Below are positions 1 to 10,528 of a stretch of 64,000 nucleotides of DNA, one piece after another (position 1 is the stretch's first letter; each line of letters starts with the position of its first letter). The translations under genes and the position numbers were made by a program. The DNA is from Jiangella endophytica (GTDB taxonomy: Bacteria; Actinomycetota; Actinomycetes; Jiangellales; Jiangellaceae): assembly GCF_003427025.1 (NCBI RefSeq), contig NZ_QVAI01000023.1, positions 1 through 64,000 of the forward strand, given 5' to 3'. The notes beneath the pieces are model-generated. The model was not told the origin of the DNA and ran no database searches. It saw only the letters and a program-made list of their open reading frames with translations.

Positions 1-62
1 GCCGGCCGACTGCCGACACGCGTCAGGCCGATCGCGCGCCGCTGGGTGAGCCAGGCCTGCAT
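1..62 (-). CDS. Possible 5' end of a divergent gene, cut by the window edge
   Basis: An ATG at 62 (minus strand) opens a frame that stays open to the window edge, reading MQAWLTQRRAIGLTRVGSRP. An AGGAAA sequence stands four bases before the ATG and could be its ribosome binding site. The piece is too short to assign to a family. If it is a gene, it is divergent from the sulfur operon and the palindromic element at 67-89 lies directly before its start. It could equally be a chance open frame. Confidence 0.3.
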   Translation of the reverse strand, partial: MQAWLTQRRAIGLTRVGSRP

Positions 63-66
63 CCAA

Positions 67-208
67 TTTCCTACTAGTCCACTAGGAAAGCAATCCGCGA
101 TCCACATGGTGATATCGCCGCGCCGCGGCGGGGGTTCGGCGTGCGGTTTCGGGACGCCCGTCTCACGGATCGGACATTTCATTGTATCCCTATCAAGTAA
201 CTAGGAAT
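67..208. promoter_or_regulatory. Two copies of a CCTA-N9-TAGG element before the sulfur operon
   Basis: Copy 1 is at 67-89 (TTTCCTA, nine bases, TAGGAAA). Copy 2 is at 186-208 (ATCCCTA, nine bases, TAGGAAT). Arm geometry is identical, both share ACTAGGAA on the right side, and 14 of 23 positions agree. Copy 2 lies just before the leader peptide start at 217. A weak -35/-10 pair (TTGTAT 182-187, GAATAT 205-210, spacer 17) would place transcription start at or near that ATG, which would make the leader mRNA leaderless. Dimeric operators for a sulfur-responsive regulator are the natural reading. The regulator is not identified here. Confidence 0.5.
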
Positions 209-216
209 ATCGTCGC

Positions 217-306
217 ATGACTGCTGGCGACCTTCTGGTGCGGCGACTCGCCGTCGACCTGATGCGCAGTGCCAGCGCCCTGTGTCCGCTCTGCTCGCAC
301 TGCTGA
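217..306 (+). CDS. Cysteine-rich leader peptide (29 aa) of the sulfur operon
   Basis: This short frame begins at ATG 217 and stops at TGA 304-306. The peptide reads MTAGDLLVRRLAVDLMRSAS followed by ALCPLCSHC. The VDLMRSASALC core resembles the small leader peptides that actinobacteria carry upstream of sulfur-assimilation genes (often with an R-x-VDL-x-R-x-x-S-A-x-C pattern). In mycobacteria, cysteine-codon upstream ORFs are known to attenuate downstream genes according to cysteine supply. Three cysteine codons sit in the last seven codons, where ribosome stalling would matter most. The next gene starts at 422 and belongs to a sulfur-scavenging operon, which fits. No standard SD precedes the ATG and a leaderless start is possible. 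The function is inferred from composition and position. Confidence 0.7.
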   Translation: MTAGDLLVRRLAVDLMRSASALCPLCSHC

Positions 307-315
307 TCCTGCTGC

Positions 316-401
316 GTCGGCGATGGGTGCGCCGACCCCGATCCGCACGGTACCCGGGTGTTTCCCCTGTTCTGGCCGGTGGCCGCGCCATGCCGTGGCG
401 C
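316..401 (+). promoter_or_regulatory. Candidate attenuator hairpins between leader peptide and first gene
   Basis: Just after the leader stop codon there is a perfect 7-bp stem, GTCGGCG (316-322) with CGCCGAC (330-336), loop of seven. A second perfect 6-bp stem, GCGCCA (385-390) with TGGCGC (396-401), loop of five, ends eight bases before the AAGGAG ribosome binding site (410-415). Stalling on the cysteine codons could shift pairing in this 115-base spacer and so set transcription or translation of the operon. No U-run follows either stem, so translation-level control or Rho-dependent ending is as likely as a classical terminator. Confidence 0.4.
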
Positions 402-421
402 CTGCGACGAAGGAGCTGTAC

Positions 422-2086
422 GTGAACCCAACGACCCCCACGATCCGCCGGAGGCACAGACTCGCCGCCGCCGCGAGCACGATCCTGCTGCTGGCGGCCG
501 CCGCCTGCTCGGCCGGCGCCGCGAGCGACGACACCGAGGACGCCGCGGCCAGCGACGAACCGGTGCGCGGCGGCGAGCTGGTCTACCTCGACGCGGAGAT
601 CCCGATCTCCGCGCTCATCCAGGAACAGGGCACCTGGCAGGACCGGGCGCTGTTCTGGAACCTCACCGATCGGCTGGTCTACCGCAACGCCGAAACCGGG
701 GAGTTCGAGCCGTGGATCGCCGAGAGCTGGGAGGTCTCCGACGACGGCCTGCGCTACGACTTCGTGATCCGCGACGGCGTGACCTACAGCGACGGCACGC
801 CGGTCGACGCGCAGAGCGTCGCGCGGAACCTGACCCGTCAGGTGTACGGCGACGAGGCGAAGGGGCTGGCGAAGAACTACGCCTTCCCCGACGCGGCGGA
901 GATCACCGCCGACCCTGCGACGCGGACCGTCACCGTCGTGCTCACCCAGCCGTGGGCGCCGCTGCTCGGCGCGCTCACCGGCTGGGCGGCCGGGCTGCTC
1001 GCCGACTCCGTGCTCGAGCTGACCCGCGAGGAGCAGTCCGACTACACGAACCTGGTCGGCAGCGGCCCGTTCACGGTGGAGTCGGTGGAGTACGGCAAGG
1101 CGTACGTGCTGACTCGCCGCGACGGCTACGCCTGGGCGCCGCAGAGCTCGCCCAACCAGGGCGAGGCGCACCTCGACACCGTCACCATCACGCCGGTGCA
1201 GGAGGACTCCGTCCGCCTCGGCACGCTGCGGTCCGGGCAGGCGCACCTGCTGCGCTACGTGCAGCCGAGTGAGGAGCGGGCGCTGGCGGACGACGGCTAC
1301 ACCGTCGTCGCGCGCAGCGGGGTGGGCCTGGCCAACCAGTGGCCGCTGCGGCAGAACGCCTGGCCCGGCGACGACCCCGACGTCCGCAAGGCGCTCCAGC
1401 TGGCCGTCGACCGCGAACAGATCATCGAGGACCTCTACACCGAGAACTGGTCGGCCGCGACCAGCGTCGTCTCGCCCGGCACGCTGGGCTACACCGACCT
1501 GTCCGCGGAGATCGGTTACGACCCGCAGCGCGCCGCCACCCTGCTCGACGAGGCCGGCTTCAGCGAGCGCGACGCCGACGGGTACCGCGTCCGCGACGGG
1601 CGGCGGCTGAGCCTCAAGACCTACGTCGACGTCTTCGACAACACCGCCAAGGCGTTGTTCCAGCACATCCAGGCGCAGTTCAAGGACCTCGGCGTCGAAC
1701 TGGTCATCGACGAGACCGACTACAGCTCGTACGGCCAGACGGTCAACGCCGACCCCGAGGTGAACTTCACCCGCACGGGCTGGCCGCACCCGGACCCCGC
1801 GCACGGCCTGTGGAACGTCTTCTCGTCGGCGCGCGCCGACAGCCTGAAGCTGGAGGGCGCCGACCCGCAGCTCGACGCGCTGCTGGACGCCGGCCTGCAC
1901 GCGCCCAGCACCGATGCCGAGGCGGCCGCCCTCGCCGAGACCCAGCGGTACCTGCTGGAGAACGCGCTGACGATCCCGATCCTCAACGACACGCAGGTCT
2001 ACGTCGGCGCTCCCGACGTGCACGGGTTCACGCTGTCCGACGGCGGCCTGCCGGAGTACCAGCGCGCGTGGCTGGACGCCGGATGA
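422..2086 (+). CDS. ABC transporter substrate-binding lipoprotein, peptide/opine type (SBP_bac_5)
   Basis: Binds the substrate of an oligopeptide-type ABC importer on the outer face of the membrane. The 554-residue protein starts at GTG 422, six bases after AAGGAG, and opens with a basic stretch, a hydrophobic segment and the lipobox LAAAAC (Cys about 29). The family 5 signature is clear around residues 95-130 (WEVSDDGLRYDFVIRDGVTY then SDGTPVDAQSVARNL). It is the first gene after the cysteine leader peptide, and its TGA overlaps the next ATG (ATGA), so it is coupled to the permeases. Family 5 proteins bind peptides, nickel complexes, opines or, in sulfur operons, organosulfur compounds. The flanking monooxygenases favour an organosulfur ligand, which I infer. 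Confidence 0.93.
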   Translation: MNPTTPTIRRRHRLAAAASTILLLAAAACSAGAASDDTEDAAASDEPVRGGELVYLDAEIPISALIQEQGTWQDRALFWNLTDRLVYRNAETGEFEPWIAESWEVSDDGLRYDFVIRDGVTYSDGTPVDAQSVARNLTRQVYGDEAKGLAKNYAFPDAAEITADPATRTVTVVLTQPWAPLLGALTGWAAGLLADSVLELTREEQSDYTNLVGSGPFTVESVEYGKAYVLTRRDGYAWAPQSSPNQGEAHLDTVTITPVQEDSVRLGTLRSGQAHLLRYVQPSEERALADDGYTVVARSGVGLANQWPLRQNAWPGDDPDVRKALQLAVDREQIIEDLYTENWSAATSVVSPGTLGYTDLSAEIGYDPQRAATLLDEAGFSERDADGYRVRDGRRLSLKTYVDVFDNTAKALFQHIQAQFKDLGVELVIDETDYSSYGQTVNADPEVNFTRTGWPHPDPAHGLWNVFSSARADSLKLEGADPQLDALLDAGLHAPSTDAEAAALAETQRYLLENALTIPILNDTQVYVGAPDVHGFTLSDGGLPEYQRAWLDAG

Positions 2087-3063
2087 GCCGGCGCGCGTTC
2101 GTCGCGCGCCGGATCGCGCAGGCGGTGCTGGTGATCTGGCTGTCGTACACGCTGGTCTTCGCGGTGCTGTTCGTGCTGCCGGGCAACCCGATCCGCGACA
2201 AGATCACCAACCCGCTGAACCCGCTGCCCGAGTCGGTGGTCCGGCCGCTGATCGAGTACTACGACCTCGACCTCACGCTGGTCGAGCAGTACCTGGTCAC
2301 GCTCGGCCGGACCTTCACCGGCGACCTCGGCTACTCCCTGGTCAGCGGCATCCCGGTGACCGAGCTGCTGGCACAGGGGCTGTCCGAGACGCTGGCCCTC
2401 GCGGCGCTCGCACTGCTGTTCTCGGTGCTGCTGGCGCTCGGCATCGCGCTGACGGCGGTGTTCTTCCCCGTGGCCGCCGTGCGCAGCGTCGTGCGGGCGC
2501 TGCCGGCGGTGTTCCTGTCGACGCCGAGCTTCCTGGTGGGCTTCGTCCTGCTGGTGGTCTTCTCGTTCCAGCTCGGCTGGGTCTCGTCGATCCGCGACCA
2601 GGGCCTGGTGTCGTACGTGCTGCCGGCCCTGACGCTGGCGATCGCGGTCAACGCGCCGATCGCCCAGGTGCTGATCCAGGGGCTCAGCCGGGCCAGGGGC
2701 GAGCCGTTCGTCACCGTGCTCAAGGCCAAGGGGGTGCCGCCGGCCACCATCGCCGGACGGCACATCCTCAAGAACGGCTCGATCCCGGCGCTGACGCTCA
2801 CCGCGCTGACCGTCGGCGACCTGCTGGCCGGTGCGACGATCGTCGAGACGATCTTCAACCGGACCGGGATCGGGCTGATCACCGAGCAGGCGGTCCGCGA
2901 GCAGGACACCCCGGTCGTCATGGCCATCGTGGTGCTCGTGTCCACGCTGTTCGTGGTCATCAACCTGTTCACCGACCTCGTCTATCCGGTCATCGACCCG
3001 CGCATCTCCCTCCGCGCGGCCGCGGCGCCGCGACGGGTCCGCCGGCGGGTGGCGATCGGATGA
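2083..3063 (+). CDS. ABC transporter permease, DppB/OppB type
   Basis: First membrane subunit of the peptide-type importer, 326 residues. The N-terminus (RRIAQAVLVIWLSYTLVFAV) is the typical DppB first helix, followed by FVLPGNP and, after the periplasmic stretch, further transmembrane segments. Near the C-terminus come the coupling-loop residues (KAKGVPPATIAGRHILKNG) and the family ending around DLVYPVIDPRI. The start ATG overlaps the stop of the binding-protein gene by four bases, and its own end overlaps the next gene in the same way. It works as a heterodimer with the following gene product, driven by the double ATPase downstream. Confidence 0.95.
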   Translation: MSRRAFVARRIAQAVLVIWLSYTLVFAVLFVLPGNPIRDKITNPLNPLPESVVRPLIEYYDLDLTLVEQYLVTLGRTFTGDLGYSLVSGIPVTELLAQGLSETLALAALALLFSVLLALGIALTAVFFPVAAVRSVVRALPAVFLSTPSFLVGFVLLVVFSFQLGWVSSIRDQGLVSYVLPALTLAIAVNAPIAQVLIQGLSRARGEPFVTVLKAKGVPPATIAGRHILKNGSIPALTLTALTVGDLLAGATIVETIFNRTGIGLITEQAVREQDTPVVMAIVVLVSTLFVVINLFTDLVYPVIDPRISLRAAAAPRRVRRRVAIG

Positions 3064-3902
3064 CGACCGCCGACCTCGCCGTGCCCACCACCACCCGGTT
3101 CCGGCTGCGCCAGATCTCCGTCGTGGAGTGGCTGGCCCTCGTCGTCGTGGCGCTGCTGGTCGTCGCCGTCATCGCGCCGGGGCTGCTGACCTCGTACGAC
3201 CCGCTGGCGCCGGACCCGGCGGCGATCCTGCAGTCGCCGTCGGCGGCACACCCGTTCGGCACCGACTACCTGGGTCGCGACCTGCTGTCCCGGGTGGTGC
3301 ACGGAACCGTCCGGACGATGGTCGGCTCGGCCGTCGCCGTGGTCATCGGCCTCGGCCTGGGCACGGTGCTCGGACTGGTGGCGGCGTACTTCGGCGGACT
3401 CGTCGACGCCGTCATCTCACGGATCGTCGACGTGCTGCTGTCGATCCCCGGGCTGCTGCTGTCGATGGTCGTCGTGGTGGCGCTCGGGTTCGGCGCGCTC
3501 AACGCCGCGATCGCCGTCGGGGTGTCGTCCGTCGCCGTGTTCACCCGGCTGATGCGCTCGGAGACGCTCACCGTCACCGGGCTGCCGTTCGTCGAGGCCA
3601 GCCACCACCTCGGCGGCACCCGCCGCCAGGTGCTGATCAGGCACGTGTTCCCCAACTCCTACTCGGCGGTGTTGTCGCTCACCGCGCTGCAGTTCGGCTT
3701 GGCGATCCTCTGGATCTCCTCGCTGAGCTTCCTCGGCTACGGTGCGCCGCCGCCGGAGCCGGAGTGGGGGCTGCTGGTCGCCGAGGGCCGCGAGTACGTC
3801 GTCTCCTCGCCGTGGCTGGTCGTGATCCCCGGGCTGGCCATCACCGTGTCCGTCCTGTCGATCAGCCGGGTGAGCCAGTTCGTGAAGGAGAGGGTGCTGT
3901 GA
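3060..3902 (+). CDS. ABC transporter permease, DppC/OppC type
   Basis: Second membrane subunit of the importer, 280 residues. The DppC marks are present: a first membrane helix near the N-terminus (LALVVVALLVVAVIAPGLL), the motif HPFGTDYLGRDLLSRVVHG at about residues 64-82, and the EAA-like coupling loop FVEASHHLGGTRRQVLIRHV. It begins inside the stop of the DppB-type gene (ATGA). Its stop shares one base with the ATG of the ATPase gene (TGATG), so the importer genes form one tightly coupled unit. Confidence 0.95.
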   Translation: MTTADLAVPTTTRFRLRQISVVEWLALVVVALLVVAVIAPGLLTSYDPLAPDPAAILQSPSAAHPFGTDYLGRDLLSRVVHGTVRTMVGSAVAVVIGLGLGTVLGLVAAYFGGLVDAVISRIVDVLLSIPGLLLSMVVVVALGFGALNAAIAVGVSSVAVFTRLMRSETLTVTGLPFVEASHHLGGTRRQVLIRHVFPNSYSAVLSLTALQFGLAILWISSLSFLGYGAPPPEPEWGLLVAEGREYVVSSPWLVVIPGLAITVSVLSISRVSQFVKERVL

Positions 3903-5515
3903 TGACCGAGTCCCCGATCGTGGTCGAGGACCTGCGGATCGGCTACTTCCACGGCCGCGGCGGCGTCGCCGACGTCGTGCACGGCGTCTCGTTCGAGGTC
4001 CGCCGCGGCGAGACGACGTCGCTGGTCGGCCAGTCCGGGTCCGGCAAGAGCACCATCGCGCACGCCATCGGCGGGCTGCTGCCGGCCAACGGCGCCGTCA
4101 CCGGCGGCCGGATCCAGGTGCTCGGCCGCGACGTCACCGGGTTCACGTCGCGGCAGTGGCGCGGCCTCTACGGGTCGTCCGTCGGATTCGTCCCGCAGGA
4201 CCCGCTCAGCTCGCTGGACCCGCTCGTCCGGGTCGGCGACCAGATCGCGCAGAGCCTGCGGGTGCACCGGACGGTGCCGCGCGCGGCCGTCCGGGACCGC
4301 GTCGTCGAGCTGCTGGACCACGTCGGCATCCAGAAGCCGGCGGAGCGGGCCCGCTCCTACCCGCACCAGCTGTCCGGCGGCCAGCTGCAGCGCGTGCTGA
4401 TCGCGATCGCGGTGGCCGCCCGCCCGGCGATCCTCGTCGCCGACGAACCCACGTCGGCGCTGGACGTGACCGTCCAGAAGACGATCCTCGACCTGCTCGC
4501 CGAGCTCCAGCACGACCTCGGGCTGGCCGTCCTGTTCATCACCCACGACCTGGCGCTGGCGCGGGAGCGGGCCGACCGGCTGGTCGTGCTCAACCACGGG
4601 CTGGTGAAGGACCACGGCCCGACCCGGCAGGTGCTGGAGAACCCACGGGACCCGTACACGGTGACGCTGCTGTCGCACGCACCGGCGGAGGACCCGGACC
4701 GCTACGCCGGCCGCGTCGCGGACCACGGCGCGCCGGTCGTACTCGAGATCGACGCCGTCAGCAAGGAGTTCGGGCGCGGATCGGGCGCCGTCCGGGCCGT
4801 CGACGACGTGTCGCTTCGGCTCACCCGCGGCTCGATCCACGCCGTCGTGGGGGAGTCGGGGTCGGGCAAGACGACGCTCGCGCGCGTCGCCGCCGGGCTG
4901 ATCGGGTTCGACGCCGGCCGCGTGACGGTGGCCGGCCGCGAGCTCGACCCGCAGCCGGACGTCGTCAACCACCACGGCGGCGACCTGCAGCTGGTCTACC
5001 AGAATCCGCTCGCCGCGATGGACCCGCGCTACGACGTCGCGCGGATCGTCGAGGAGCCGCTGCGGCTGGCCGGCCTGCGCGACCGCGCCGAGCGGCGCCG
5101 CCGGGTCCGCGAGATCCTCGACCGCGTCGCACTGCCCGCGACGGTGCTGGACCGCAGGCCGCGCGAGGTCTCCGGCGGGCAGCGCCAGCGGGTCGCGATC
5201 GCCCGGGCGCTCGTGCTCGCCCCGAAGATCCTCGTCCTCGACGAGCCCACCTCCGCCCTGGACGTGACCGTCCAGGCCCAGATCATCGACCTGCTGGTCG
5301 AGCTGCAACGCGAACAGGAGCTGAGCTACGTGTTCATCTCGCACGACCTGAGCCTGGTCCGCCAGGTCTCCGACACGATCACGGTGCTGGAGGACGGTGT
5401 CGCGGTCGAGCACGGCGCCACCCGGACGGTGTTCGCCGCGCCCGCGCACCCCTACACCCGGCGGCTGCTCGACGCGATCCCCGGCCGCGTCGCGGAGCGG
5501 GCGGTGGTGGCATGA
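3902..5515 (+). CDS. ABC transporter ATP-binding protein, fused DppD-DppF double cassette
   Basis: Energises the importer. The 537-residue protein holds two complete nucleotide-binding domains in tandem. The first has Walker A GQSGSGKS at residues 43-50, signature LSGGQLQRV and Walker B ILVADEPTSALD. The second (from about residue 280) has Walker A GESGSGKTT, signature VSGGQRQRVAIARAL and Walker B ILVLDEPTSALD. Each half ends with the oligopeptide-cassette tail (NPRDPYTVTLLSHAP; APAHPYTRRLLDAIP), which fits the OppD/DppD and OppF/DppF families. Single-chain double cassettes are common in actinobacteria. All catalytic motifs are intact. Its stop overlaps the next gene's start by four bases. 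Confidence 0.95.
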   Translation: MTESPIVVEDLRIGYFHGRGGVADVVHGVSFEVRRGETTSLVGQSGSGKSTIAHAIGGLLPANGAVTGGRIQVLGRDVTGFTSRQWRGLYGSSVGFVPQDPLSSLDPLVRVGDQIAQSLRVHRTVPRAAVRDRVVELLDHVGIQKPAERARSYPHQLSGGQLQRVLIAIAVAARPAILVADEPTSALDVTVQKTILDLLAELQHDLGLAVLFITHDLALARERADRLVVLNHGLVKDHGPTRQVLENPRDPYTVTLLSHAPAEDPDRYAGRVADHGAPVVLEIDAVSKEFGRGSGAVRAVDDVSLRLTRGSIHAVVGESGSGKTTLARVAAGLIGFDAGRVTVAGRELDPQPDVVNHHGGDLQLVYQNPLAAMDPRYDVARIVEEPLRLAGLRDRAERRRRVREILDRVALPATVLDRRPREVSGGQRQRVAIARALVLAPKILVLDEPTSALDVTVQAQIIDLLVELQREQELSYVFISHDLSLVRQVSDTITVLEDGVAVEHGATRTVFAAPAHPYTRRLLDAIPGRVAERAVVA

Positions 5516-6900
5516 CCACCGAGCCGAAGCGGCTGATCCTCAACCTGTTCGAGATGAACTGCGTCAGCCACATCACGCACGGTCTGTGGCGGCTGCCCGG
5601 CAACAACCGCGAGCGGTTCAACGACATCGAGTACTGGCTGGAGCTGGCCCGGCTGCTGGAGGACGGCGGCTTCGACGCGGTCTTCCTCGCCGACGTCGTC
5701 GGCGCCTACGACACGTTCCGCGGCAACGCCGGCACCGCCGTCCGCGAGGGGCTGCAGATCCCGTCGAACGACCCGCTGCTGATCGTCCCGGCCATGGCGG
5801 CGGTCACCCGGCATCTCGGCTTCGGCATCACGTTCTCGACGACGTACGAGCCGCCGTTCTCGTTCGCCCGCCGCATGAGCACGCTGGACCACCTGACCAA
5901 GGGCCGGGTCGGCTGGAACATCGTCACGTCCTACCTGCCCAACGCCGCCCGCAACTTCGGCCTCGACGGCGAGATCGACCACGACCAGCGCTTCGAGATC
6001 GCCGAGGAGTACCTGGAGGTGCTCTACAAGCTGTGGGAGGGGTCGTGGGAGGAGGACGCGATCGTCGCCGACAAGGCGAACGGCGTCTACGCCGACCCGG
6101 CGAAGGTGCACGCCATCGACCACGAGGGCGAGCACTACAAGGTGGCCGGTCCGCACCTCGCGTCGCCGTCGCGGCAGCGCTCGCCGCTGCTCATCACGGC
6201 GACGGCGTCGCCGCGCGGCATCCGGTTCGCCGGCAAGCACGCCGAGGCGCTGTTCACCGGCGGCGGCACGCCCGAGGCCGTCCAGGACACCATCGCGCGG
6301 GTGCGTGCGGCCGCGGCCGACGCCGGACGTGAGCCCGGGGACGTGAAGTTCGTGGTCGGCGCCGGAGTCGTGGTCGCCGCGACGGAGGAGCAGGCGCGGG
6401 CGAAGCTGGCCCGCTACCAGCAGTACTCCAGCGTCGAGGGACGGCTGGCCCACGGCGGGTTCGGCTTCGACCCGACCGCCCACCCGCGCGACACCCTGGT
6501 GCGCGACGTCGCGGGCGAGAACGCGTTCGGGCGCCGGTCGCGCGGCCCGTTCAGCGGCGACCAGACCGTCGGCGAGCTGCTCGACGCGCTGGCCGACCTG
6601 TCGCGCGGCCCGTTCTTCGCCGTCGGCGGCCCCGGCCAGGTGGCCGACGCGATCGAGTCGTGGCTCGACGACGTCGGCATCGACGGGATCAACCTCACCC
6701 AGCACCACAGCTTCGACACCGCACGCGACTTCGTCGAGCACGTCGTGCCGGAACTGCGCCGGCGCGGGCGGCTGCGCCCGGCCTACCGCGACGGCGAGAC
6801 GCTGCGCGACCGCGTGCACGGGGCCGGCGACCGGCTGCCTGAGCGTCACCCCGCCGCGCGGTACCGCCGCGCGCCCGCACTCGCCGTGCCCACCGCCTGA
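5512..6900 (+). CDS. FMNH2-dependent monooxygenase, NtaA/SnaA/DszA family
   Basis: Bacterial-luciferase-fold monooxygenase of 462 residues, close to the usual 440-460 of the family. Recognisable parts are the N-terminus (RLILNLFEMNCVSHITHGLW), the flavin-site region (RRMSTLDHLTKGRVGWNIVT at about residues 120-139, then SYLPNAARNFGLD) and the conserved GEHYKVAGPHLASPSRQRSP region. Members cleave or oxygenate dibenzothiophene sulfone (DszA), nitrilotriacetate (NtaA) or S-substituted cysteines (SnaA/CmoJ/YxeK type). With two DszC-like genes and ssuD downstream, an organosulfur substrate is likely; the exact one cannot be read from sequence. It needs reduced FMN from a reductase not encoded in this operon. 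GTG/ATG-coupled with the ATPase gene upstream (ATGA). Confidence 0.88.
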   Translation: MTTEPKRLILNLFEMNCVSHITHGLWRLPGNNRERFNDIEYWLELARLLEDGGFDAVFLADVVGAYDTFRGNAGTAVREGLQIPSNDPLLIVPAMAAVTRHLGFGITFSTTYEPPFSFARRMSTLDHLTKGRVGWNIVTSYLPNAARNFGLDGEIDHDQRFEIAEEYLEVLYKLWEGSWEEDAIVADKANGVYADPAKVHAIDHEGEHYKVAGPHLASPSRQRSPLLITATASPRGIRFAGKHAEALFTGGGTPEAVQDTIARVRAAAADAGREPGDVKFVVGAGVVVAATEEQARAKLARYQQYSSVEGRLAHGGFGFDPTAHPRDTLVRDVAGENAFGRRSRGPFSGDQTVGELLDALADLSRGPFFAVGGPGQVADAIESWLDDVGIDGINLTQHHSFDTARDFVEHVVPELRRRGRLRPAYRDGETLRDRVHGAGDRLPERHPAARYRRAPALAVPTA

Positions 6901-6910
6901 GGAGGCCGTC

Positions 6911-8107
6911 ATGACGACCGCAGACCCGCTCGAGCGGTTCACCCCGATCCTCGAGCGCATCCGTGAGGGCGCGGCCGGGCGCGAGCGGGACCGCGTGCTG
7001 CCGCGTGACGAGGTCGGCGAGCTGGCCGCGGCCGGGTTCGGCGCGCTGCGCCTGCCGCCGGACGGGACCGGCCGGGGCATCGCCCTGACCACGTTCTTCG
7101 AGCTGCTCATCCGGCTGGGCGCGGCCGACTCGAACCTGCCGCAGATCTGGCGCAACCACATCGCGTTCGTCGAGGACCGCCTTCAACCCGGCGACGGCCG
7201 CAACGAGCACTGGCGCAAGGTGATCGCCGGGGGAGCGGTGATCGGCGGCGCCTGGTCCGAGCGCGGCACGGCGGCCGGTCAGTCGACCACGACGCTGACC
7301 GATAACGACGGCCGCTGGCGGCTCACCGGCACGAAGTACTACAGCACCGGCAGCCTGTTCGCCGACTGGATCAGCGTCACCGCGCCCAGCGGCGACGACC
7401 ACGTGGTCGCCCTCGTCGACGCCACCGCCCCCGGCGTCGAGGTGGTGGACGACTGGAGCGGCATCGGCCAGCGCACCACGGCCAGCGGCACCGCTCGGTT
7501 TACCGAGGTCACCGTCGACGAGGTCGGCATCTACCCGTTCCGCGACCGCGCGCCGTACCAGGAGGCCGTCTACCAGCTCGTGCACCTGGCGACGCTGGCC
7601 GGCACCGCTCGCGGCGCGCACCTCGACCTCGTCGACGCCGTCCGCCACCGCGGCCGCTCCTACAAGCACGGCCTCGCCGAGTCCGCCCGCGAGGACGCCC
7701 AGGTGCTCGCCGTCGTCGGACGGGTCGCGGCGGCCGCGTTCGCCGCGGAGGCCGCCGTGCTGCGGGCCGCGGCGCCGCTGGACGAGGTGGCCGATCTGGC
7801 GATCGCCGGCACCCACGACGCGGACGCGCTGGCGCCGCTGCTGCACGCCGCGACGGTCACCGTCTACGAGGCGCAGGTCGCCGTCACCGAGCTGGTGCTG
7901 CAGGCGACGACGCTGCTGTACGACGCGCTCAGCGCCTCGGCGCTGGACGCCGGGACGCTGCTGGACCGGCACTGGCGCAACGCCCGCACCGTCACGTCGC
8001 ACAACCCGCGCATCTACAAGGAGCGCCTGGTCGGGAACTGGCACGTCAACGCGGTGCCGCCGGGCCTCGGCTTCGACCGGGCCGAGAAGGAGGGCACCGC
8101 ATCGTGA
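6911..8107 (+). CDS. Acyl-CoA-dehydrogenase-like flavin monooxygenase, DszC/SfnB family
   Basis: The 398-residue product has the acyl-CoA dehydrogenase fold of the flavin-dependent DszC/SfnB group, which oxygenates sulfides or takes part in sulfone use rather than oxidising acyl-CoA. Supporting features are GTKYYSTGSLFADWISVTAP in the middle domain, the VVDDWSGIGQRTTASGTARF strand region and the C-terminal LDRHWRNARTVTSHNP motif typical of DszC-like proteins. The acyl-CoA dehydrogenase catalytic glutamate cannot be placed. A strong GGAGG sits six bases before ATG 6911. The gene overlaps its paralogue downstream by four bases (GTGA); the two may form a heteromer or act on successive steps. Confidence 0.87.
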   Translation: MTTADPLERFTPILERIREGAAGRERDRVLPRDEVGELAAAGFGALRLPPDGTGRGIALTTFFELLIRLGAADSNLPQIWRNHIAFVEDRLQPGDGRNEHWRKVIAGGAVIGGAWSERGTAAGQSTTTLTDNDGRWRLTGTKYYSTGSLFADWISVTAPSGDDHVVALVDATAPGVEVVDDWSGIGQRTTASGTARFTEVTVDEVGIYPFRDRAPYQEAVYQLVHLATLAGTARGAHLDLVDAVRHRGRSYKHGLAESAREDAQVLAVVGRVAAAAFAAEAAVLRAAAPLDEVADLAIAGTHDADALAPLLHAATVTVYEAQVAVTELVLQATTLLYDALSASALDAGTLLDRHWRNARTVTSHNPRIYKERLVGNWHVNAVPPGLGFDRAEKEGTAS

Positions 8108-9291
8108 CGGCGCGACCGCCCGTCCTGGACGCCGGTCGCGCCGTCCGGGTCGCCCGCGAGCAGGCCGTCCTGCTGGCGAAGGACGCCGCCGCCCGTGACA
8201 GCGAACGCCGCCTGCCCGGGCCCGAGGTGGCGGCGCTGGCCACCTGCGGTCTGCTGGGCATCACCGTCCCCGCGGCGCACGGCGGGCCCGCCCTGCCCGC
8301 CTCCGTCGTCGCCGAGGTGTTCCGGCTGCTCGCCACGGGCGACCCCAACGCCGCGCAGATCCCGCAGAGCCACTTCGTGTACGTCCGCGCCCTGCGCGAC
8401 CGGGCGACGCCGGAGCAGCAGCGGTTCTTCTTCGCGGAGGTGCTGGCCGGGCGGTGGTTCGGCAACGCCCAGGCCGAGCCCGGCACCCGGCACGCCCGCG
8501 ACCTGCGTACGACGTTGCGGCCCGACGGTGACGGCTGGCGACTCGACGGCGTGAAGGGGTACAGCACCGGAGCCCTGTTCGCCGACTGGATCCCCGTGCT
8601 GGCGCACCGGGGCGAAGGCGGGCCGCTCGCCGTCGCCTGGGTCCGCCGCGACGCCGCCGGCGTCGAGGTGGTGGACGACTGGGACGGCCTCGGGCAGCGG
8701 ACCACGGCCAGTGGCACCGTCCGGCTGACCGGCGTGCGGGTCGCCGCCGAGCACGTCACCGGTTACGCGGAGACGTTCGACGGCCCGCAGGTGCACGGCG
8801 CGTTCGCGCAGTTGCTGCACGCGGCCCTCGACACCGGCATCGCCCGGGCGGCGGTGACCGAGGCCGCCGAGTTCGTCCGCGGCACCAGCCGGCCCTACCC
8901 GGACGCCGGGGTCGACCGGCACGCCGAGGACCCGCTGGTGGCGCAGGCGTTCGGTGAGCTGGAGCTGGCCGTCCGGTCCGCCGAGGCGCTGCTGCAGGCC
9001 GCCGGTCGGGCCGTCGACGTCGCCGACCGCGACCTCGACGCCGACACGGCACGCGAGGCTGGCCTCGCCGTGGCCGCCGCACGGGTCGCGTCCACCCGGG
9101 CGTCGCTCGAGGCGGGGAGCCGGCTGTTCGAACTGGGCGGCACCCGGTCGGCACTGGCCGCGCTCAACCTCGACCGGCACTGGCGCAACGCCCGCACCCA
9201 CACGCTGCACGACCCGGCGGCCTGGAAGCTTCAGCACCTCGGCCGCTGGGTCGCCGACGGCGTCGAACCGCCGAACCACCCGCAGTTCTAG
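8104..9291 (+). CDS. Second acyl-CoA-dehydrogenase-like monooxygenase, SfnB/DszC family
   Basis: Paralogue of the preceding gene, 395 residues. It shares the core motifs GVKGYSTGALFADWIPVLAH, VVDDWDGLGQRTTASGTVRL and LDRHWRNARTHTLHDP. The N-terminal segment (LLGITVPAAHGGPALPASVV) and the middle motif (GNAQAEPGTRHARDL) are closest to SfnB, a protein of dimethyl-sulfone utilisation. The GTG start at 8104 overlaps the stop of the first copy, so I take it as translationally coupled. Two such genes side by side suggest either a two-step oxidation (sulfide to sulfoxide to sulfone) or two substrates. Confidence 0.86.
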   Translation: MTARPPVLDAGRAVRVAREQAVLLAKDAAARDSERRLPGPEVAALATCGLLGITVPAAHGGPALPASVVAEVFRLLATGDPNAAQIPQSHFVYVRALRDRATPEQQRFFFAEVLAGRWFGNAQAEPGTRHARDLRTTLRPDGDGWRLDGVKGYSTGALFADWIPVLAHRGEGGPLAVAWVRRDAAGVEVVDDWDGLGQRTTASGTVRLTGVRVAAEHVTGYAETFDGPQVHGAFAQLLHAALDTGIARAAVTEAAEFVRGTSRPYPDAGVDRHAEDPLVAQAFGELELAVRSAEALLQAAGRAVDVADRDLDADTAREAGLAVAAARVASTRASLEAGSRLFELGGTRSALAALNLDRHWRNARTHTLHDPAAWKLQHLGRWVADGVEPPNHPQF

Positions 9292-9307: not shown

Positions 9308-10528
9308 ATGACCCTGACGTTCCACTGGTTCCTGCCCACCAACGGCGACAGCCGCGACGTCGTCGGCGGTGGCCACGGCACCGCGACCGGCGTCGCGGGC
9401 GGCGACCGGCCGGCCAGCGTCGCCTACCTCGGGCAGATCGCGCGCGCCGCCGAGCAGCTCGGGTTCACCGGCGCGCTGACGCCGGCCGGCGCGTGGTGCG
9501 AGGACGCCTGGATCACCACGGCGCTGCTGGGCGGCGTCACCGAGAAGCTGCGGTTCCTCGTCGCGTTCCGGCCCGGCCTGATCTCGCCGACCCTCGCCGC
9601 CCAGATGGCGGCGACGTTCCAGAACCTGTCCGGCGGCCGGCTGCTGCTCAACGTCGTCACCGGCGGGGAGAGTCACGAGCAGCGCGCCTACGGGGACTTC
9701 CTCGACAAGGACGCCCGCTACGCGCGCACCGGTGAGTTCCTCGACATCGTCCGGCGGCTGTGGCGCGGCGAGACGGTCGACGCCGACGGCGAGCACCTCC
9801 AGGTCGAGGGCGCGGCGCTGACCCGCCTCCCCGACCCCGTCCCGCCCATCTACTTCGGCGGCTCGTCGCCCGCCGCCGGGCTCGTGGCCGCCCGCCACGC
9901 CGACGTCTACCTGACCTGGGGCGAGCCGCCGGACGCCGTCGCGGAGAAGATCGCGTGGATCCGCTCGCTCGCGAAGGCCGAGGGCCGCGAGCTGCGCTTC
10001 GGCATCCGGCTGCACGTCATCCCGCGCGACACCGCCGCCGAGGCGTGGGCCGAGGCCGACCGGCTGCTCGCCCGCATCGGCGACGACACGATCGCCGGCG
10101 TCCAGCAGGGGTTGCGCCGCAGCGAGTCCGAGGGCCAGCGGCGCATGCTCGAACTCAACCGGGGCACCCGCGACGACCTCGAGGTGGCGCCCAACCTGTG
10201 GGCCGGCGTCGGCCTGGTCCGCGGCGGCGCGGGGACGGCGCTGGTCGGCAGTCACACGGAGGTGGCGGACCGCATCGAGGAGTACCACCGCCTCGGCATC
10301 GACGAGTTCGTGCTGTCCGGCTACCCGCACCTGGAGACGGCGTACTGGTTCGCCGAGGGCGTCGGTCCGGTGCTCTCGCGCCGCGGCCTCTGGGACCTCG
10401 GCGCCACGCCGGCCGGCAGCGCCCGGGTCCCGTTCGCGGGGCCGGCGCCCGCTCAGCCCACGTCGACGACCGCCTTGACGAAGCCGGCGGGCTTGGAACG
10501 CAGCGCCTCGAACGCCTCGTCGGCCTGA
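9308..10528 (+). CDS. ssuD: Alkanesulfonate monooxygenase SsuD
   Basis: Two-component flavin monooxygenase that releases sulfite from alkanesulfonates with FMNH2 and oxygen. From memory the similarity to E. coli SsuD runs along the whole chain: FHWFLPTNGDSRDVVGGGHG at the start, Cys64 in WCEDAW, LYLTWGEPP-type segment (VYLTWGEPPDAV), FGIRLHVIPRD, the PNLWAGVGLVRGGAGTALVG loop and VLSGYPHLE. All are conserved, so the enzyme should be active. At 406 residues it is about 25 longer than E. coli SsuD. The extra tail (after about residue 378) reads across the end of the oppositely oriented gene at 10453. No SsuE-type FMN reductase gene lies in the operon. Last gene of the unit. Confidence 0.95.
   Translation: MTLTFHWFLPTNGDSRDVVGGGHGTATGVAGGDRPASVAYLGQIARAAEQLGFTGALTPAGAWCEDAWITTALLGGVTEKLRFLVAFRPGLISPTLAAQMAATFQNLSGGRLLLNVVTGGESHEQRAYGDFLDKDARYARTGEFLDIVRRLWRGETVDADGEHLQVEGAALTRLPDPVPPIYFGGSSPAAGLVAARHADVYLTWGEPPDAVAEKIAWIRSLAKAEGRELRFGIRLHVIPRDTAAEAWAEADRLLARIGDDTIAGVQQGLRRSESEGQRRMLELNRGTRDDLEVAPNLWAGVGLVRGGAGTALVGSHTEVADRIEEYHRLGIDEFVLSGYPHLETAYWFAEGVGPVLSRRGLWDLGATPAGSARVPFAGPAPAQPTSTTALTKPAGLERSASNASSA

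Follow-up and report, generated by a model that had tools for sequence, protein, structure and literature searches.

The polycysteine leaderless short ORFs of M. smegmatis, reportedly the subject of Canestrari et al. in 2020, are among the described systems closest to the leader peptide considered here. According to a citing sentence in PMC13236596, they act by translation attenuation. Leaders with runs of cysteine codons also precede the cys operons of Mycobacterium and P. acnes and the cbs gene of B. longum, and the sections of PMC1262725 that deal with these leaders propose Rho-dependent control, a prediction that its authors call rather weak. In Rhodobacterales, the cysteine-codon uORF uORFC-8-2 lies before cysS; the part of PMC8632094 devoted to it describes a predominance of UGC and a model whose end is a U-run, as is typical of intrinsic terminators, whereas UGU is the conserved codon and no terminator is found in the case described below. 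For S. lividans, a survey gives eight leader peptides, none of which the cited sections of PMC8079986 assign to cysteine.

The leader analysed here comes from Jiangella endophytica (assembly GCF_003427025.1, contig NZ_QVAI01000023.1; genome G000), and the window, that is the whole stretch of DNA under analysis, comprises positions 1 to 64,000 of the forward strand. As the preliminary description had noted, a 29-codon ORF stands 5' of an organosulfur operon with two perfect hairpins in the spacer, and three of its last seven sense codons encode cysteine. The ORF runs from ATG to TGA, and its cysteine codons are one TGT and two TGC (Table 1). Cysteine is rare in the window, with 72 of 13,300 codons in the script-picked genes. 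The peptide matches NF042934.1 ("putative leader peptide", class cis_reg_atten) with 30.5 bits against a cut-off of 27 (28.9 bits in the genome search). The match spans residues 5-23 and ends at the conserved cysteine, and the leader differs from the family by a C-terminal extension, CPLCSHC, that adds two more cysteines. The leader does not reach the Ms5788A model NF042933.1 (16.3 bits, cut-off 45). With Ms5788A and the M. smegmatis leaders it shares cysteine codons near the stop and sulfur genes downstream, and probably a leaderless start, whereas its cysteine codons are spaced rather than tandem and long complementarity to the Shine-Dalgarno (SD) sequence is missing. The leaders treated in the cited sections of PMC1262725 are also actinobacterial and lack a visible terminator, but they precede another operon, and nothing in the base composition of the window locus corresponds to the polypyrimidine motifs that those sections propose as Rho sites. 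No Rfam family reaches its gathering score across the 64,000-base window. The leader is an unremarkable representative of a known kind, sensibly placed, and it very probably gauges cysteine, as do many others in actinobacteria.

In profile scans, the genes 3' of the leader encode, in order, a substrate-binding protein (SBP), two permeases, a double ATPase, an NtaA/DmoA-family enzyme, two SfnB/DszC-like proteins and an SsuD-like protein. The first of them opens with GTG at 422, preceded by AAGGAG at 410-415, and the stop codon of the leader occupies 304-306. The label DszA/DszC-like, under which the operon had first been described, proved loose, as the enzymes score as NtaA/DmoA, SfnB-like, SfnB and near-SsuD. 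The two operon proteins compared with the DszC model NF043015 reach 91.8 and 177 bits against a cut-off of 850, therefore organosulfur scavenging is a better name for the operon than dsz.

Table 1. Features of the leader locus and the operon, in window coordinates
Feature	Position	Strand	Basis or remark
Decayed divergent leader, same family, MQAWLTQRRAIGLTRVGSRP...	1..62	-	Lacks Cys as far as it is present; truncated at position 1, where the contig ends
Perfect palindrome TTTCCTA-N9-TAGGAAA, operator-like, between the divergent leaders	67..89	.	Sequence scans
Proposed promoter, TTGTAT (182-187), 17 nt, GAATAT (205-210)	182..210	+	By eye
Second operator-like palindrome TCCCTA-N9-TAGGAA, overlapping the proposed promoter	187..207	.	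Pattern scans
Leader peptide ORF MTAGDLLVRRLAVDLMRSASALCPLCSHC	217..306	+	NF042934.1 above cut-off; kept in G004
Conserved Cys codon TGT, proposed sensing codon	283..285	+	TGT in 134/134 and 27/27 leaders
Two more Cys codons, both TGC (292-294, 301-303)	292..303	+	Last is Arg in G004
Hairpin 1, 7 bp (316-322/330-336)	316..336	+	Unchanged in G004
Hairpin 2, 6 bp (385-390/396-401)	385..401	+	In G004, loop changed, arms unchanged
Shine-Dalgarno AAGGAG of the first operon gene	410..415	+	Sequence reading
ABC transporter substrate-binding protein, SBP_bac_5	422..2086	+	Best NCBIfam match TIGR04028, below its cut-off
ABC permease	2083..3063	+	BPD_transp_1, E 1.3e-23
ABC permease	3060..3902	+	Profile scan
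Double ABC ATPase	3902..5515	+	Profile scan
NtaA/DmoA-family FMN monooxygenase	5512..6900	+	TIGR03860, 484.5 bits, cut-off 279.7
SfnB/DszC-like acyl-CoA-dehydrogenase-fold protein	6911..8107	+	Below NCBIfam cut-offs
SfnB-family sulfur acquisition oxidoreductase	8104..9291	+	TIGR04022, 484.1 bits, cut-off 430.9
Alkanesulfonate-monooxygenase-like, SsuD-like	9308..10528	+	Somewhat under cut-off

The family is widespread in the class. At an E value of 1e-4, NF042934.1 detects members in 42 of 59 genomes sampled from the class (the present one included), with 0 to 10 leaders per genome, and in none of 14 control genomes; at 1e-3 all 12 genomes of the same genus have matches. When the threshold is relaxed to an E value of 10, matches appear in 10 of the 14 controls, none of them above the cut-off. 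The set examined for codon use comprised 137 places, namely 113 rows at E 1e-4 from the class, 21 further rows from the same genus (one same-genus row, G004:C4:3228132-3228182, was left out) and three weaker rows from the own genome, which were chosen by their peptide sequence while other weak own-genome rows were left out. After collapsing relatives above 80% identity, 115 leaders remained.

At the last profile position, which holds the conserved cysteine, the codon is TGT in all 134 leaders counted, from 50 genomes. The three remaining places comprise two without a cysteine at this column and one partial match, whose cysteine, by eye, is also TGT. A second set yielded TGT in 27 of 27 leaders from eight further genomes of the genus of G076 (the 27 of 54 non-G076 rows that have loci); this genus had already given four genomes to the first set, therefore it is not an independent lineage. 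The coding background of the same loci has TGT in 40 of 404 cysteine codons, and that of the window alone in 8 of 72. Similarly, TGT accounts for 20 of the 104 other cysteine codons in the same leaders (9 of 66 before the sensor, 11 of 38 after it) and for 9 of 61 at -7 and -2, the main cysteine columns ahead of the sensor (Fisher 2e-38). The search model is a protein profile and therefore should not favour a codon. The codons flanking the sensor TGT, as well as the next base, vary across the family, thus the invariance of TGT is read as selection on decoding. The stop codon follows UGU after 0-4 codons in 114 of 134 leaders, and six codons lie between them at the window locus. As an observation apart, the ORF of L158 (G076:C1:1355838-1355891, minus strand) ends in RVCSAI with TGA exactly at the position of the sensor TGT, and the match table has two further rows, G101:C87:14285 and G103:C6:389665, that also cover profile positions 1-18 only.

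UGU is read by G-U wobble of tRNA-Cys(GCA). Of the two cysteine codons, the gauge uses the rarer one without exception in the relatives compared; we infer that UGU is the sensing codon and that its invariance reflects decoding by wobble. A wider claim has in our view about an even chance of being right: the family would have one sensor codon, necessarily UGU, and this rare, wobble-read codon would make each leader a single-codon gauge of Cys-tRNA whatever its other cysteine codons or its output, so that 11 gauges in this genome would link sulfur genes with no protein regulator in common, in the present case on top of a palindromic operator. The UGU regularity of the family is the new point here, while the use of the leader before sulfur operons is an already known pattern. 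A UGU rule for the NF042934 family was not found in the literature searched, although it may have been mentioned earlier, for instance in the key M. smegmatis paper. The rule turns a loose family definition (a cysteine near the end) into a sharp prediction, namely that a swap to UGC should weaken or shift the response. As UGU and UGC specify the same amino acid, such a swap allows codon-specific sensing of starvation to be tested directly in a two-codon box.

Orthologues of the locus are few. An SBP orthologue at E 1e-60 is present in only one, G004, of the 11 other genomes of the genus, and a one-genome-per-species scan of 84,980 species, which reaches close relatives only, returned one locus, in Paractinoplanes rishiriensis (73%), where by reading there is no leader and the SBP start follows directly after a similar promoter. 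The orthologue evidence is therefore thin, with the SBP orthologue in 2 of 12 same-genus genomes (own included) and the leader missing in P. rishiriensis. Six base changes separate the leader from its counterpart in G004, five of them synonymous and one, which turns the third cysteine into arginine, non-synonymous, a pattern of constraint at the protein level. The conservation of the cysteine codons, to which the preliminary description had tied its idea of sensing, is thus partial: two of three are kept in G004, whereas the third is arginine there and P. rishiriensis, by reading, has no leader. The spacer differs from that of G004 at 10 of 112 sites; among four-fold sites in the SBP gene, the count is 59 of 303 (P = 0.011).

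The two hairpins are only marginally unusual, since dinucleotide shuffles of the spacer contain on average 0.26 such hairpins (P = 0.027 for two or more) and the whole region folds no better than shuffles (z +0.89 for 217-445, +2.30 for 304-445). The comparison set for the stems consists of one 93% relative and one orthologue without a leader. In G004, none of the 26 arm positions is changed against 10 of the 86 other spacer positions, which is not significant (Fisher P = 0.11). A stem within the leader, 266-272/297-303, was discarded as a candidate, as both changes in G004 (270 and 301) break pairs in our reading of the alignment. No terminator-like site, that is no intrinsic terminator with a U-tract, occurs in positions 1-800. 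Of the cysteine-sensing attenuation proposed at the outset, one part is supported: a leader with cysteine codons, from a family known in actinobacteria, precedes an organosulfur operon. That the hairpins form its switch is not supported, as there is no U-tract terminator and no consistent change at the SD, and the internal stem loses two pairs in the relative.

How a held ribosome might act on the operon was approached through modelled accessibility, complementarity and spacer composition. In a thermodynamic model, the accessibility of the SD stays at 0.42-0.54 at every ribosome position, which would speak against an SD switch. The modelled accessibility of the start codon ranges over 0.20-0.45 and climbs from 0.23 to 0.32-0.45 when the ribosome stalls at cysteine codon one or two; it is 0.45 for the second-cysteine stall at the window locus, whereas in G004 it falls from 0.10 to 0.04. 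Across the family, the 30 nt that follow TGT contain a stretch exactly complementary to the SD region of the same leader that is at least 7 nt long in 12 of 107 leaders (5.3 expected, P 0.005) and at least 8 nt long in 7 of 107 (1.6 expected, P 0.0009). These P values are uncorrected, because this was the third form of the test and, of eight windows tried, the 0-30 one was the richest in 7-nt matches. With the threshold lowered to 6 nt there is no excess in the family (17 against 16.9 expected). Neither fixed anti-SD motifs near TGT (46 of 115, against 41.5 in shuffles) nor the energy of a duplex formed by the leader end with the SD (as good in 494 of 5000 permutations) is significant. The exact complementarity in part of the family fits translation attenuation as reported for M. 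smegmatis; at the window locus its longest stretch is 5 nt, which places it outside the subset with at least 7 nt.

The spacers of the family are also skewed in composition. C minus G averages +0.142 in 107 spacers of at least 50 nt, 96% of which lie above zero. The controls, 26 other upstream regions taken from the window only, average 0.000 (P 4e-8, for the last 100 nt). These C-rich, G-poor spacers are compatible with the Rho proposal in the cited sections of PMC1262725, with the window locus as an outlier: its own value of 0.0 falls at the 2nd percentile of the family, and the best rut-like stretch found by script, from 401 onwards, covers the SD and the beginning of the first gene. A frameshift fusion of leader and first gene was considered and rejected; the frame is open back to TGT in 32 of 112 cases, split 17/15 between the two shifted frames, and in G004 leader and gene share one frame, which the stop codon of the leader closes. 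The sensing half of the system is well supported by sequence, and for the output step at the window locus, which we infer, we lean towards translation with Rho close behind.

Upstream of the leader, the control region carries the relic of a second leader and two palindromes. Region 10-111 matches the divergent leader pair on contig C89 of the same genome (72%, E 1.6e-6), which is the intact form of the arrangement with two leaders back to back over one palindrome. In G004 the divergent copy is frameshifted by reading, and the gene beyond it encodes a flavin reductase. The proposed promoter of the forward leader, which was picked by eye and at which a consensus sigma-70 scan finds no site, ends 6 nt before the ATG and would make the leader mRNA leaderless. 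The pattern TTCCTA-N9-TAGGAA has 10 sites in the genome at one mismatch or fewer, compared to 2 for the reversed pattern, and at two mismatches or fewer it is not enriched genome-wide (26 against 27 for the control). Five sites lie at leaders, two in the window (68-88 and 187-207) and three beside other leaders (C7:8679, C34:287025, C89:243461). Four of the other five (C19:9283, C19:60918, C25:1733, C25:2292, C25:12204) are beside scavenging-type or transporter genes: of the three on C25, two are flanked by an acyl-CoA-dehydrogenase-like and an SBP_bac_5 gene and the third is next to a luciferase-like gene, and one on C19 is next to FAD oxidoreductase and permease genes, while C19:60918 is upstream of no scanned gene.

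We consider it likely that the ORF is a cis-acting, cysteine-responsive leader of the cis_reg_atten family, in which a stall at UGU keeps the organosulfur operon on and translation is the favoured output. The ribosome would probably start at the 5' AUG of a leaderless mRNA and read 22 codons up to the one conserved cysteine codon, UGU, behind which this locus has two extra UGC codons. As Cys-tRNA declines, UGU would be the codon to starve first, and a ribosome held there would keep the operon on, so that the genes for organosulfur uptake and desulfonation are expressed when cysteine is short. With ample cysteine, it would read six more codons and terminate, and expression would be damped. As the first choice for the output, RNA structure around the SD may control translation of the first gene, as reported for the cysteine leaders of M. 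smegmatis, even though the modelled SD accessibility barely moves, the third cysteine is not conserved and the complementarity here is limited to 5 nt. The same sensing could act instead through Rho-dependent premature termination, as in the tna operon of E. coli: a ribosome held at UGU would shield the RNA by the stop codon, and a departed one would expose it to Rho. Such an output, possible though on balance doubtful, gains from the C excess of the family spacers, from the 114 of 134 leaders with UGU 0-4 codons before the stop and from the earlier proposal for mycobacterial, P. acnes and B. longum leaders in the cited part of PMC1262725; it loses from a window spacer without C excess, a rut-like stretch that begins at 401, the six codons between UGU and stop, and C-excess controls taken from the window alone. 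Classical transcription attenuation, with the two hairpins as terminator and antiterminator, is very improbable: the hairpins are perfect (P 0.027) and their arms unchanged in G004, but positions 1-800 hold no terminator-like site, the folding energy is weaker than that of shuffles, and the potentially competing stem 266-272/297-303 loses two pairs in G004.

It might also be asked whether the leader matters to the operon, or whether decoding explains its codon. The leader could be a passenger or decaying element and the operon be controlled by a repressor at the TTCCTA-N9-TAGGAA palindromes, two of which lie in the control region, one over the proposed promoter. The excess of genome sites (10 against 2), the similar palindrome at the P. 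rishiriensis orthologue without a leader, by reading, and the decay that the divergent leader of the window has already undergone all point that way. However, the forward leader is intact, its changes are mostly synonymous, TGT is kept and the spacer is conserved beyond four-fold sites, the enrichment vanishes at two mismatches, and both controls can coexist, which together make the passenger reading quite unlikely. An overlapping RNA or protein-binding element, rather than decoding, could hold TGT invariant, and the invariance is indeed stronger than decoding speed alone would seem to need; with flanking codons and the base after TGT free to vary, and no invariant partner of TGT seen by eye in part of the 115 spacers, we regard such an element as unlikely. 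Besides the codon, the company of sulfur genes is a further point in favour of the cysteine-responsive leader.

The own genome has 11 places read as leaders, six above the cut-off and five weaker. Of the genes that follow the other ten, five encode a sulfite/nitrite reductase, a cysteine dioxygenase, an NMT1-type binding protein and two SBP_bac_5 proteins. The remaining five, whose names do not mark them as sulfur genes, encode a DUF4395 protein, an SDF symporter, a Cons_hypoth698 protein (which we take to be YeiH-like), a wHTH protein and a zinc carboxypeptidase. In the family as a whole, a script based on GC3 bias plus SD found downstream genes for 112 of the 115 non-redundant leaders, although it misplaces some starts, for instance at G000:C1:157615, where the nearer ORF encodes a DUF4395 protein. 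Among the 25 of 37 Pfam families shown for these 112 genes (the window's own included) are Rhodanese (22), NIR_SIR (15), Bac_luciferase (9), DUF4395 (9), SDF (7), SBP_bac_5 (6, the window's own among them), Trans_reg_C (5), NMT1 (5), CDO (4), PAPS_reduct (4) and PALP (4), and 4 of the 112 match cysteine synthase models. The use before a DszA/DszC-like operon, which had been taken to extend the set, is thus not new: monooxygenase and SBP genes are already among the downstream genes of the family (Bac_luciferase 9/112, SBP_bac_5 6/112), and it is part of the pattern. These neighbours suggest that organosulfur scavenging here shares a cysteine-gauged set with the genes for sulfite reductase, rhodanese and cysteine synthase elsewhere in the class.

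Two further leaders of this genome deserve mention. L047 (G000:C2:280757-280810, minus strand; 22.2 bits, below the cut-off) has TGT and stands before the cysteine dioxygenase gene; with CDO genes downstream of leaders, induction by cysteine shortage would be odd for an enzyme that degrades cysteine. In the divergent pair on C89 (L043), one leader precedes a small wHTH (Trans_reg_C) protein, which is a candidate regulator of the sulfur set.
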